From Thiobacter sp. AK1 (GTDB lineage: Bacteria; Pseudomonadota; Gammaproteobacteria; Burkholderiales; Thiobacteraceae), in the NCBI RefSeq assembly GCF_039822265.1, contig NZ_JBAJEX010000007.1, forward strand, positions 1 to 64,000: 64,000 nucleotides of DNA. Direction: 5' to 3'. Below are positions 6,759-11,363 of the stretch, piece after piece. The notes under the pieces are model-generated. The model ran no database searches. It was not told the DNA's origin and saw only the letters and a program-made list of their open reading frames with translations. The first letter of the stretch is position 1. Each line of letters begins with the position of its first letter. Both the position numbers and the translations under genes were made by a program.

Positions 6759-7100
6759 ATGATCAGCATTTCCGTGGACAAAAACGTCGTCATCCTCTCG
6801 GTACTGGGGGAATTCACACTCGACGATTTCAAGCAGTTCGAAGAGCACGTGCTCTACGCCTCCAAACTCGGGCCGGTGAATCTGCTCATCGACCTGCGGG
6901 ACATGGTGGGCTATACGCTGGACGTGGTGTGGGAGGAGCTCAAGTTCTCCCGGGAACACCAGTACGATTTCGACAAGGTCGCAGTCGTGACGGACAACCA
7001 GTGGGTGGCCTGGAGCGCCTGGCTGCAACGCATGTTCGTGGATGCGGACATCGAAGTGTTCGACGATTACGACGAGGCGCGCGCCTGGGTTGCCCAATAG
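6759..7100 (+). CDS. STAS/SpoIIAA-like protein
   Basis: The 113-aa product resembles the SpoIIAA-like (STAS-fold) small proteins found singly in many proteobacteria. The N-terminal strand pattern ISVDKNVVILSVLGEFTLDDF, the LLIDLRDM strand and the tail DDYDEARAWV are typical. The molecular role of this family is not settled; the fold suggests ligand or partner binding. It precedes the protease-FHA pair by 58 bp on the same strand, so it may be the first gene of a three-gene unit. Confidence 0.7.
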   Translation: MISISVDKNVVILSVLGEFTLDDFKQFEEHVLYASKLGPVNLLIDLRDMVGYTLDVVWEELKFSREHQYDFDKVAVVTDNQWVAWSAWLQRMFVDADIEVFDDYDEARAWVAQ

Positions 7101-7158
7101 CCCAGCAGCTGCGCGCGCCGCGCTTGGACCACCCTGGCGCGGCAGGTAGAATGACACG

Positions 7159-8442
7159 ATGCGTTTGACCCCACGCGCCGGCCTGCTCTTCCTGCTACTA
7201 CTGCTTATACCAGCCCTGGTGCCCGTCCGGGCCCAAACCCAGCAGATCTTCAGCCGCTACCAGGACCGCGTGGTGCAGGTGCGTATCCTGGAATCCTCTT
7301 CCGGCGCCAAGGCCGGCGTGGGATCGGGCTTCGTGGTCTCGGCCACCGGTCTCATCGTCACCAATTATCACGTCATTGCCGATCTCATCCACAAGCCGGA
7401 GCTCTATCGCGGCGAGGTGCTCACCGCCACTGGCCTACTCGCCCCCTTGCGACTCGTCAATTTCGACGTGGTGCACGATCTCGCCCTCGTCGCCAGCGAC
7501 ATCGCTTTTCCGCGCCACATGACGCTCGCCACGGGGCCGGTGGCCATTGGCGAGCGCCTCTATTCCATCGGCACGCCCTTGGATCTCGGCTTCACCATCG
7601 TGGAAGGCACGTATAACGGCCTCTTGGCGCATTCCCTTTACGAGAAGGTCCATTTTACCGGCTCCATCAATCCCGGCATGAGCGGCGGTCCCGCCGTGCT
7701 GGCGGATGGACGGGTCGTCGGCGTCAACGTGGCGACCGCCGGCAACCAGGTAAGCTTCCTGGTGCCGGCGCGCTACGTCAGAGAACTATTGGCACGTACC
7801 CCGCGCACGGAAGCACTCGATCCCGAGGCCGCGCGGGCGCTGCTGCGCCGTGACCTCATCGCCAACCAAGCGCGCTACATGGAGCAGCTATTGGGGAGGC
7901 CATTGACCACCACCAGACTGGGCGATTATCGCGTGCCGGGGCACGTGGCGCCATTTCTGCGCTGCTGGGGCGATGCTGAACGAGATCCAACGTATGTTTA
8001 TGAGCAGGTGACACAACAGTGCTCCTCCGAGGACAACATCTACCTCTCGCGTACGCAGCAGACGGGCACGGTGCATTTCCAGCACGTCTTCCTGGCGGGA
8101 CGCAACATCAATCGCTTCCGCTTCTACGCGCTCTATCAGGCGCAGTTCAATCAGCCCTACGAGAAGATTCCGGCTGAGCGGGAGGACGTTTCGCGCTTCG
8201 CCTGCCACACTGACTTCGTGCACCATGGCGGCCTTGATTTCAAGGCCGCGCTGTGCCTGCGCCGCTACAAGAAGCTGCCGGGTCTCTATGATGCCGTGCT
8301 ACGCGCCGCCACGCTGGACCAGAACACGCGGGGCATGGTGACCACCGCGGTACTAGCCGGGGTCAGTGCCGACAATGCGCGCCGCTTCGCCCGCCACTAT
8401 CTGGAGAGTTTCGCGAAGGAGAAAAGGCCGTGGAACCGCTGA
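7159..8442 (+). CDS. secreted trypsin-like serine protease with a novel C-terminal region
   Basis: The 427-aa product starts with a Sec signal peptide (hydrophobic core LLFLLLLLIPALV, likely cleavage after VRA near residue 25). A chymotrypsin-fold protease domain follows. The triad is visible as His71 (NYHVIAD), Asp107 (VVHDLALV) and Ser175 (GMSGGPAV), the pattern of the HtrA/Do group. There is no PDZ domain. Instead about 240 residues with four cysteines follow that I do not recognise. The protein should act in the periplasm or outside the cell. It overlaps the next gene by 13 bp, so the two are translationally coupled. Confidence 0.85.
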   Translation: MRLTPRAGLLFLLLLLIPALVPVRAQTQQIFSRYQDRVVQVRILESSSGAKAGVGSGFVVSATGLIVTNYHVIADLIHKPELYRGEVLTATGLLAPLRLVNFDVVHDLALVASDIAFPRHMTLATGPVAIGERLYSIGTPLDLGFTIVEGTYNGLLAHSLYEKVHFTGSINPGMSGGPAVLADGRVVGVNVATAGNQVSFLVPARYVRELLARTPRTEALDPEAARALLRRDLIANQARYMEQLLGRPLTTTRLGDYRVPGHVAPFLRCWGDAERDPTYVYEQVTQQCSSEDNIYLSRTQQTGTVHFQHVFLAGRNINRFRFYALYQAQFNQPYEKIPAEREDVSRFACHTDFVHHGGLDFKAALCLRRYKKLPGLYDAVLRAATLDQNTRGMVTTAVLAGVSADNARRFARHYLESFAKEKRPWNR

Positions 8443-9398
8443 TGGTGGCGGAGGTGCTGGACAAGTCCGGTCGCGTGCACAGCCGGCTTCGGCTCGAGCA
8501 ATTCCCGGTGCGGATTGGTCGCGCCTACCACAACGACATCATCCTCGACGACGAATTCGTCTCACCGGAGCATGCCCGCATCGAGCTCGACAGTTCCGGC
8601 CAGCCGGTAATAGTGGACCTCGACAGCGACAACGGCACCTATGTACTGCCGAAGCTTGAGCGCATCATGCGCCATCCACTCAGCGGCGAGACCCTGCTAC
8701 GGCTTGGCCACACCCTGATCCGCCTACGCAGCGCCGATTACCAGGTCCCGCCCGCTCGACGCGACAGCCTAGGCCTCAACCGCGCCACGCGCTGGCTCAC
8801 CCAAGGCGTGGGGGCGGCAATTGCCTACGGCATGGCGCTTAGCCTGATCATCCTCGAGCACCACCAGAGCAGTCCCGAAGCGCTCGGCCCGGAACAGATC
8901 CTGCTCGCGACTCTTTCCATGGCCCTAGCGATTCCCCTTTGGGCAGGACTGTGGGCCTTGGCCAGCCGCAGCTTCGCCCACCATGCCTATTTCGTGCCCC
9001 ACCTGGCGATCGCCAGTGCCGCCGTGGCGGCCCTCTTCGTACTGGACACCCTGGGCCAGTACTATGCTTTTGCATTTTCCGCAGGCATTTCGGCGGATGT
9101 GATCTTCGAAGGCGTGACGGTGCTAGTGGTGGCTAGTGCCCTCTATGGCCATCTGCGTTTCGCGACCCTGCTCACGCCGCGCGGGGTGGGCACCACCGCG
9201 CTGGTGTCGGCACTGGTGCTGGTGGGTATGATCTATTTCAGCGACTACGTGGACGCCACGGATTTCAACGACGATCTGCCCTACCCAGGCGAGCTCAAGC
9301 CGCCAGCCTTTGCCTTCGGCAAACCCAAGAGCCCCGCCCGCTTCGTCGAGGACGCCAAAGCCATCCTGCGCACATTGGATGCCGGCCAGTGGGACTGA
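8430..9398 (+). CDS. membrane protein with N-terminal FHA domain
   Basis: The 322-aa product has a forkhead-associated (phosphothreonine-binding) domain in residues 1-95. The binding-site marks are GR at 30-31, SPEH at 45-48 and DNGT at 67-70. From about residue 125 to 275 there are roughly five hydrophobic segments, for example GVGAAIAYGMALSLIIL and TALVSALVLVGMIYF. A Pro/Ala-rich C-terminal tail of about 45 residues follows. FHA domains read phosphorylated partners, so the protein could link a cytoplasmic Ser/Thr kinase signal to the membrane. No kinase or phosphatase is encoded nearby. It is coupled to the upstream protease gene. Confidence 0.82.
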   Translation: MEPLMVAEVLDKSGRVHSRLRLEQFPVRIGRAYHNDIILDDEFVSPEHARIELDSSGQPVIVDLDSDNGTYVLPKLERIMRHPLSGETLLRLGHTLIRLRSADYQVPPARRDSLGLNRATRWLTQGVGAAIAYGMALSLIILEHHQSSPEALGPEQILLATLSMALAIPLWAGLWALASRSFAHHAYFVPHLAIASAAVAALFVLDTLGQYYAFAFSAGISADVIFEGVTVLVVASALYGHLRFATLLTPRGVGTTALVSALVLVGMIYFSDYVDATDFNDDLPYPGELKPPAFAFGKPKSPARFVEDAKAILRTLDAGQWD

Positions 9399-9672: not shown

Positions 9673-10149
9673 TCAGGAAGACAGCCAGGGATACTTGTCC
9701 CACAGCTCCGGGTGGGCCCAGTACTTGGCATTGAACCACTCGGGCGCGGGTTTGTAGGTGAAGAGATCGAAGCGGAATAGGCCGCTTGTCTGCCCATCCC
9801 TCTGCTTTAGTGCCAGACGCTCCATGCCCAGCGCGAAGAAATCGTTCTCGCCCCACTCTCCCAGCACGCAACGCACGTAGAGACGCGGGGTGTGCACGTC
9901 CCGCAGCCGACATAGCAAGCGCACGCCCTCCACCTTTGCGAGCCCTTCCAGCACGTCTATCACATAGACAAGATCGAAGCGCGCGGGCTCGTTGTCCGCC
10001 GGCAGCCAAGGTGGCGCAGCGTGATGGGTCAGCGCGCAACCGGTGGGCAGCGGCCCGGCCAGGCGACCCAGCACCAGCAGGCTACGGGCGCGGCAAGCGG
10101 TCACGAGCGTCGTCAGCTCAAGCGTGTCTTGGGTGGAGGCGTTGGACAT
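9673..10149 (-). CDS. DUF6231-like small protein, methyltransferase-related fold possible
   Basis: The 158-aa product looks like the DUF6231 group from memory, which I cannot verify. An N-terminal segment (SLLVLGRL) is followed by a FDLVYVIDVLEGL strand-loop pattern that resembles the middle of a Rossmann methyltransferase. The glycine-rich SAM loop is missing or degenerate. The C-terminus is rich in aromatic residues (YKPAPEWFNAKYWAHPELWDKYPW). Function is unknown. The gene stands alone between two REP-like hairpins and is transcribed away from parA. Confidence 0.6.
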   Translation of the reverse strand: MSNASTQDTLELTTLVTACRARSLLVLGRLAGPLPTGCALTHHAAPPWLPADNEPARFDLVYVIDVLEGLAKVEGVRLLCRLRDVHTPRLYVRCVLGEWGENDFFALGMERLALKQRDGQTSGLFRFDLFTYKPAPEWFNAKYWAHPELWDKYPWLSS

Positions 10150-10366: not shown

Positions 10367-10529
10367 CCATGTCGGGCGTATCCTCACTCTGCGTCTTCCC
10401 TTGGGTGAGGGCGAGGCGAGGAGACGATCGGGGCGCATGCTCTCATCACTTCAGGGCGCGTTAGGCCAGGATCATGAGCGGACTTTGCTACGCCACCACT
10501 TTATGTTCCCGCTGTAACAACTGGATTTG

Positions 10530-10558
10530 TTGCGTGTTTTTTCTCACAGCGCTATGCT
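10530..10558 (+). promoter_or_regulatory. candidate parA promoter
   Basis: TTGCGT (10530-10535) and TATGCT (10553-10558) are separated by 17 bases, 25 bp before the parA ATG at 10584. Confidence 0.5.
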
Positions 10559-10583
10559 GGGGCATGCCACCAGAGGGGGCGCC

Positions 10584-11363
10584 ATGACCGTCATCACTGT
10601 GTTCAATCAGAAAGGCGGGGTAGGCAAAACCACCACCAGCCTCAACCTGGCCGCGGCCATGGCGGCACGCGGACAGCGGCCACTGCTCATCGACCTCGAC
10701 CCGCAGTCCCATCTCACCCATACCCTTGGCATCAGCATAGACCGGAGCGAGGAGAGCATCTATGCCTTTTTCCAGCGCACTCGCACGCTGGCTGAGCTGG
10801 TTCGCCCGGCGCCCGCAGGCATGCGCCTGATCCCTGCCCATCTCGATTTGGCCAAGGCAGACGCGGTGTTTGGCAAGAGCTACAACATCGTCACGCGTCT
10901 TGCCGGCGCGCTGCGCACAGAAACCCTGGAGGACGCACAAGAACCGGTGGTCATCGATTGTAGCCCGATGCTTGGCGTGCTTTCGCTCAATGCCCTGTTC
11001 GCGTGCGAGCTGGTACTGGTGCCCATCTCCGCCGACTTCCTCGCCCTCAACGGCGCACTGAAGGTGGAGAAAACCCTCAAGGCCCTGGAACATGTGCTCA
11101 AGCGCCGGCTGCCCCGACGCTATCTCCTCACCCGTTTCGACCGGCGCCGGCGCATGGCGCGGGAAATTCTCGAAGCGGCGCGCAGGCATTTCGGGCAAGA
11201 AGTCTGCACCACCACCATCTGCGAGGACGTGCGCGTGGCGGAAAGTCCGGCGCTAAGCAAGAATGTGTTCGAACATGCGCCCAACTGCCGCGGCGCCCGC
11301 GACTACCAGGCCTTTCTGGAGGAATTGCTCGCCAGCGACTTCGCGCGCCAGAAGGCGGCGTGA
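10584..11363 (+). CDS. ParA-family ATPase, orphan
   Basis: The 259-aa product is a deviant Walker ATPase of the ParA/Soj/MinD superfamily. The P-loop NQKGGVGKTTTSLNLA lies at residues 8-23 with the signature lysine. Walker B is seen in LLIDLDPQS, and VVIDCSPML follows. The chosen ATG gives the canonical MTVITVFNQKGGVGKT start; an in-frame extension upstream overlaps the predicted promoter. Such ATPases position plasmids, chromosomes or protein clusters. No parB or parS-like repeat lies beside it, so it is more likely a positioning ATPase for another cargo. It converges on the patatin gene with a 5-bp gap. Confidence 0.88.
   Translation: MTVITVFNQKGGVGKTTTSLNLAAAMAARGQRPLLIDLDPQSHLTHTLGISIDRSEESIYAFFQRTRTLAELVRPAPAGMRLIPAHLDLAKADAVFGKSYNIVTRLAGALRTETLEDAQEPVVIDCSPMLGVLSLNALFACELVLVPISADFLALNGALKVEKTLKALEHVLKRRLPRRYLLTRFDRRRRMAREILEAARRHFGQEVCTTTICEDVRVAESPALSKNVFEHAPNCRGARDYQAFLEELLASDFARQKAA

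Follow-up and report, generated by a model that had tools for sequence, protein, structure and literature searches.

A conserved gene pair coding for an exported trypsin-like protease and a five-helix FHA protein that probably work as one unit across the bacterial envelope

The window analysed here is a stretch of 64,000 nucleotides (nt) of Thiobacter sp. AK1 (assembly GCF_039822265.1, contig NZ_JBAJEX010000007.1, forward strand), in which two genes of the plus strand overlap, one coding for a secreted trypsin-like serine protease (7159–8442) and the other for a membrane protein with an FHA domain (8430–9398), hereafter the partner. The comparison of related loci confirms that protease and partner form a conserved two-gene module. 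The pair stays together across many bacteria and probably works as one unit passing a signal across the membrane. No description of it was found in the literature, in a search that left most subscription papers outside, and passages in two reports (PMC7159879 and PMC8195603) deal with different trypsin or FHA systems, not with this pair.

The survey covered 63 loci, all from Pseudomonadota, namely, 53 with flanking sequence (the window, L035–L054 and L097–L128) and ten additional ones from a single family, f199 (L160–L162 and L164–L170). As the contig of L128 stops at the protease, counts of adjacency, of residues and on the tree refer to 62 testable loci. At all 62, the partner is the next gene on the same strand. 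Against the sister species, for which dS is close to 1, the mature protease has a ratio of nonsynonymous to synonymous substitutions (dN/dS) of 0.13 and the FHA protein one of 0.23. Because of this unbroken adjacency and these low ratios, we consider the pair to be conserved beyond chance. The overlapping genes noticed in an earlier note on this DNA are therefore a real pair, and one that is kept far beyond the betaproteobacteria, for which the note had proposed to check it.

Genomes were sampled at the level of the order (200), the class (369) and the phylum (299), a limited number of candidates being scored in each, so that all counts of genomes with homologues are lower bounds. With the whole protease as query, a near full-length relative was retrieved in 21 of the 200 order genomes, including that of the window, at expectation values (E) no worse than 6e-62, and the genome ranking next reaches only 3e-18. 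The FHA gene comes next on the same strand at each of the 20 order loci besides the window. It overlaps the protease gene by 13 nt at 14 of them and by 4 nt at four, and the gaps of 107 and 95 nt at L047 and L049 depend on the start used, as longer reading frames would give an overlap there too. In the window, the open reading frame (ORF) coordinates place the 13-nt overlap at 8430–8442 (plus strand), which suggests translational coupling.

A profile of the C-terminal domain of the protease detected 24 of the class genomes and 14 of the phylum genomes, five of the latter lying outside the class. A profile of the FHA protein identified the partner at 51 of the 53 flanked loci, window included, the exceptions being L117, where the next gene codes for the membrane part without FHA, and L128 at its contig edge; a single blast cluster unites the partners from 52 of these 53 loci, always on the same strand. 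Genome G499 (locus L061), which stands outside the flanked set, carries the C-terminal domain as well, next to a partner truncated by the contig end. The partner also adjoins the protease at all eight loci that bear names, five of which are on the same contigs as compared loci; these eight are proteobacterial, mostly betaproteobacterial, genome bins together with Leeia oryzae DSM 17879, whose pair lies at L096. Conversely, a profile limited to the membrane part recovered exactly the same 21 order genomes as the protease. Since this profile was built from 20 of those 21, the informative figure is its absence from the other 179. The 15 class genomes that it matched belong without exception to the 24 carrying the C-terminal domain, and the other 345 gave no match. 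Of the nine class genomes that it missed, eight have an adjacent partner, which was recognised with the profile of the FHA protein or by eye, and the ninth (G342) stops at a contig edge. Genome G113 harbours the pair twice, the second copy (G113:C52:4053-6403) being diverged, with a partial protease match close to a membrane part.

With regard to the protease, the gene codes for 427 residues and was delimited from the ORF list, Pfam and solved relatives. Its product begins with a probable Sec signal peptide (residues 1–25, 7159–7233), cut after VRA, which was recognised by eye in the sequence and not by a signal-peptide program. The protease domain follows (7246–7800), with a Trypsin_2 match (PF13365) over residues 55–189 at E 4e-22. 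His71 (7369–7371), Asp107 (7477–7479) and Ser175 (7681–7683), which we take from the familiar motif to be the catalytic triad, are identical in all 62 proteases. The earlier note had called the protein an HtrA-type protease without PDZ domain. The absence of PDZ is borne out, as none was found at E up to 1 in the whole protease or at E up to 0.1 in 21 C-terminal parts. The HtrA label holds insofar as Trypsin_2 matches and the closest solved structures in a Protein Data Bank (PDB) sequence search are HtrA proteases, but the protein reaches only 62.9 bits with TIGR02037, against a cut-off of 416.2, and falls under the cut-offs of the remaining HtrA models of NCBIfam likewise. The lack of PDZ and these missed cut-offs rule out filing it among the HtrA (S1C) proteases. 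It also stays below the cut-off of the MarP model NF033740 (54.3 bits, against 250). The protease may nonetheless operate like other membrane-controlled envelope proteases.

The protease domain contains no Cys, and the remainder of the protein, which had been described as about 240 unassigned Cys-bearing residues, is indeed Cys-bearing but comprises 213 residues (215–427, 7801–8439). Cys269, Cys288, Cys349 and Cys366 are identical in all 62 proteases, and 61 of these have exactly four Cys in the region. Neither Pfam, at E up to 0.1, nor a PDB sequence search returned a match for the window's domain, and plasmid records contained none at E 0.01; across 21 members of the family, Pfam gave only four matches, each in a single member and at E 0.037–0.09. 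An AlphaFold model built from nine sequences shows a beta sheet with helices, at a mean predicted local distance difference test score (pLDDT) of 78.5 for the best of five models, the others reaching 58.5 at most. The strand limits of this model bring Cys269 opposite Cys288 in one hairpin and Cys349 opposite Cys366 in another, from which we infer two disulfides. Foldseek ranked PsbP proteins first (E 7e-5, template modelling (TM) score 0.38, the top rows being at about 0.3–0.4), and VIA-align retrieved a chain of the Tle4-Tli4 complex (Z 9.7), the immunity protein TplEi (9.3), PsbP and Apa (both 8.7) and the PknH ectodomain (6.5). Because best Z values of 7 to 8 are typical of models without a clear match, membership of the group formed by PsbP, Mog1, LpqN and the PknH ectodomain is only a lead.

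The partner consists of 322 residues and starts with GTG; its gene was read from the ORF list, Pfam and hydropathy. The FHA domain (PF00498, residues 27–93, 8508–8708) was assigned at E 1e-13 and 51.8 bits, against a cut-off of 20.7. It is followed by five predicted membrane helices at about residues 124–142, 157–175, 187–205, 220–238 and 252–270 (8799–9239), on which hydropathy, loop charges and the structural model agree, and by a tail (residues 271–322, 9240–9395). Five hydrophobic segments are present in 18 of 21 homologues, and one of the other three (L054) is cut by the contig end. The loops between helices 2 and 3 and between helices 4 and 5 are basic with nearly no acidic residues, those between helices 1 and 2 and between helices 3 and 4 have few basic residues, and in most homologues the tail is richer in acidic than in basic residues. 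The FHA domain is therefore predicted to be inside and the tail outside, in the periplasm, so that an FHA domain on a five-helix anchor, as the earlier note had it, agrees with all these signals. In the tail, 46 of 62 partners keep Leu289 and 49 keep Phe305. The model of the partner (mean pLDDT 79.9) displays five long helices, with another, short one close to the end of the tail. For the membrane part, the best PDB fold match had an E of 0.55, which names no fold and is no proof of a new one.

Taken together, the conserved pair, its overlap, the co-occurrence of its parts, the invariant triad and Cys residues, the topology signals and the loss of FHA with the rest retained (see below) form the observed basis on which we tentatively favour the reading that both genes encode one membrane-spanning unit, in which the partner controls the protease and the FHA domain serves as an optional input, from inside to outside. 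The partner, with its five helices and periplasmic tail, would hold and control the exported protease, probably via the disulfide-stabilised C-terminal domain of the latter. An intact FHA domain would bind a protein bearing phosphothreonine, which may be the kinase itself, and this binding state would be relayed to the protease outside by the membrane part. Physical contact, gating, its direction and a kinase as partner are what we infer here from the sequences and models.

The family f199 bears on the direction of control. All 12 of its sampled genomes possess the pair. In six of them, the partner lacks the FHA domain, and in the other six the FHA domain lacks the phosphate-contact Ser, while the triad, the four Cys, the membrane part and the tail are kept; at L168 and L169, a lysine-rich N-terminus stands in place of FHA on the same membrane part. 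The protease tree, a quick one, groups f199 and implies three transitions in the presence of FHA. We read these losses as defining a core made of protease, membrane part and tail, with FHA as a removable input. The inverse arrangement, in which the protease or its C-terminal domain senses the envelope and cuts or moves the partner tail, FHA being the output that releases or recruits a cytoplasmic phosphoprotein, would suit the resemblance of the C-terminal model to folds of binding and sensing proteins, among them the PknH ectodomain, and a tail that is conserved in outline and predicted to be on the protease's side. We nevertheless judge it unlikely, since the Z of 6.5 for PknH falls in a range that the tool terms common, and the six genomes that keep everything except FHA show that this domain is not the sole output. 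Control from inside to outside is favoured because the rest would hardly persist after the loss of FHA if this domain were the output.

The window genome encodes two Ser/Thr kinases above the Pfam cut-off, three PP2C and two further FHA proteins located beside kinases, so that a conserved pair and a genome with Ser/Thr kinases, the two points on which the earlier note had staked its proposal, were both found. The first kinase lies in a cluster (G000:C1:400000-410000, locus L033, 2454–7932) with two FHA and two PP2C genes, which form two similar FHA-PP2C sets; the cluster also has a small gene that reads as lipoprotein-like. The second (L034, 3793–8091) precedes a PP2C gene, with yicC before the two and rph-rdgB after them, and the pair is not there. 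At L097 and L098, the order kinase-PP2C-rph-rdgB-protease-FHA runs on one strand, and it is because the order at L034 is the same minus protease-FHA that we regard the L034 kinase as a candidate partner of the pair. PP2C relatives with E values down from 1e-59 are present in roughly half of the 200 order genomes.

Kinase and/or PP2C genes stand beside the pair at two more loci, L100 (PP2C-rph-rdgB-protease-FHA up to the contig end) and L122, where protease-FHA is followed by a CHASE2 kinase, a PP2C gene and an FHA-like gene. At L099, a kinase gene lies 5.4 kb away on the opposite strand. In the 53 genomes used for these statistics (G499 left out), three same-strand kinases were seen within 3 kb of the pair, against 0.33 expected (p 0.005), some kinase counts per genome being possibly lower bounds. 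Since L097, L098 and L100 cluster on the protease tree, the linkage amounts to two independent cases. In another lineage, represented by L101 and L103, the pair comes after genes reading as purM, perM and, at L101, hda, and not after rph-rdgB.

A Pkinase search of 54 module genomes returned no match in three, namely G169, whose partner has Ala instead of the contact Ser, and G347 (no FHA) and G458 (damaged FHA), both of f199. In f199 as a whole, seven of the 12 genomes have no match and five have partial matches (40–53 bits, above the cut-off), none being full-length, whereas the best match in other module genomes with Pkinase matches has an E of 1.6e-34 or better. The contact Ser is kept in none of the 12 f199 partners, against 21 of 50 elsewhere (p 0.005), a comparison that concerns Ser alone and not the whole contact set, and a single family whose relatedness is not removed.

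From these data, we can propose, as a possibility that we hold doubtful, that the pair represents a new transmembrane signalling unit in which Ser/Thr phosphorylation read by FHA controls a periplasmic protease through a five-helix relay and the disulfide-stabilised domain. The ancestral operon would have comprised kinase-PP2C-rph-rdgB-protease-FHA as one transcript, and the lineages that shed full-length kinases would have dropped the FHA input and retained the protease core.

Several observations weigh against a tie to phosphorylation. The kinase linkage is weak, as two independent lineages only give a p of 0.045. Kinases occur in 20 of the 21 order genomes that have the module and in 151 of the 179 that lack it, which is no enrichment (p 0.32), and PP2C relatives are not enriched either (14 of 21, against 93 of 179 at about E 1e-60, or 94 at E 1e-59). 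The residues that we assume, from the familiar motif, to contact phosphothreonine (Gly-Arg, Ser, His and Asn-Gly) are all present in the window, as Gly30, Arg31, Ser45, His48, Asn68 and Gly69. All of 51 partners have the Gly, 48 have the Asn, and the Arg and the His are each kept in 46, but the Ser in only 21; Ser is replaced by Ala in 19, by Cys in six and by Asp, Glu or Arg in five, and the full six-residue set occurs in 20. At L047 and L049, FHA is eroded although the genomes have 12 or more kinase matches. In f199, the loss of FHA does not follow that of the kinase matches, since partial ones are found in three of the six genomes without FHA and in two of the six that have it. As to contact between protease and partner, the distance correlations are unspecific, being similar for all domain pairs of the two proteins (0.34–0.59, computed without L054 and the rows lacking FHA). 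The proposal that phosphorylation inside is tied to proteolysis outside, made in the earlier note, thus gains from the kinase or PP2C neighbours at four loci and loses from the lack of kinase enrichment and from a Ser retained in only 21 of 51 partners.

A rival reading takes FHA as a plain protein-binding domain, which would act independently of phosphorylation as a scaffold and bring the protease to a site in the envelope. The Ser lost in 30 of 51 partners, the lack of kinase enrichment and the persistence of the module in genomes without a Pkinase match are in line with it, and the YscD-type cytoplasmic profile, like the FHA profile, detects 19 of the 21 members at E 0.01. A mere scaffold accounts less well for Arg and Asn being kept in 46 and 48 of the 51 partners, for the full set in 20 of them, including the window, for the kinase and PP2C neighbours at four loci, and for observed FHA losses that are confined to one kinase-poor family. 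We consider it somewhat improbable, and continue to favour, tentatively, a unit in which the partner controls the protease.

The gene upstream of the pair (6759–7100, plus strand) codes for a SpoIIAA-like protein (PF11964, 95.4 bits, the cut-off being 25) and lies 58 bp before the protease ORF, exactly where the earlier note had seen a possible third partner. A three-gene partner-switching module that includes it could be argued from this spacing and from its linkage in both examined genomes of the genus, the window genome and G050, the only ones in which it adjoins the pair. Within the fetched flanks, however, it is near the pair at one of the 20 other order loci (G050) and absent from the vicinity at 19; relatives 66–71% identical exist in the sister genus, and in G095, G135 and G173 those relatives (66–69% identical) are on different contigs from the pair. 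Such a module is thus largely refuted and very improbable, and the SpoIIAA-like gene was rejected as a third component, its linkage being limited to this genus and its relatives unlinked elsewhere. On the other side, the pair is followed by a DUF6231 gene (9676–10149, minus strand) and a ParA-like ATPase gene (10527–11363, plus strand), the latter having the same place and strand at L035–L038.

Only a few outputs at the envelope are known for the Ser/Thr kinases of Gram-negative bacteria. The module represents a testable candidate for such an output, being widespread and endowed with a defined exported enzyme and an unclassified four-Cys domain, and the species that carry it form a natural series in which the FHA domain is full, damaged or missing. 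For annotators, there is reason to join as one system what are separately named trypsin-like peptidase and FHA domain protein.

In comparison with known systems, the partner shares the FHA domain with TagH of the type VI secretion system, but scores 17.8 bits with TIGR03354 against a cut-off of 120.25. It also shares this domain, with the full contact set in the window copy, with the FHA proteins of kinase/PP2C clusters such as L033, from which it differs by its five membrane helices, its periplasmic tail and the occasional loss of FHA. The C-terminal model aligns, by Foldseek and VIA-align, with the fold group of PsbP, Mog1, LpqN, the PknH ectodomain and type VI immunity proteins, whereas here there is no sequence match, four Cys are invariant and the domain is fused to a protease. 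MarP of mycobacteria is a serine protease tied to several membrane helices, and the weak NF033740 match recalls it, but the membrane part is here the product of a separate gene, usually with FHA. HtrA, DegP and DegS (S1C) share the exported trypsin-like domain and account for the strongest NCBIfam and PDB matches, and DegS links the periplasm to a membrane signal; unlike them, the protease described here has no PDZ match, scores far under their cut-offs, ends in a four-Cys domain and is constantly accompanied by the gene of its membrane partner.

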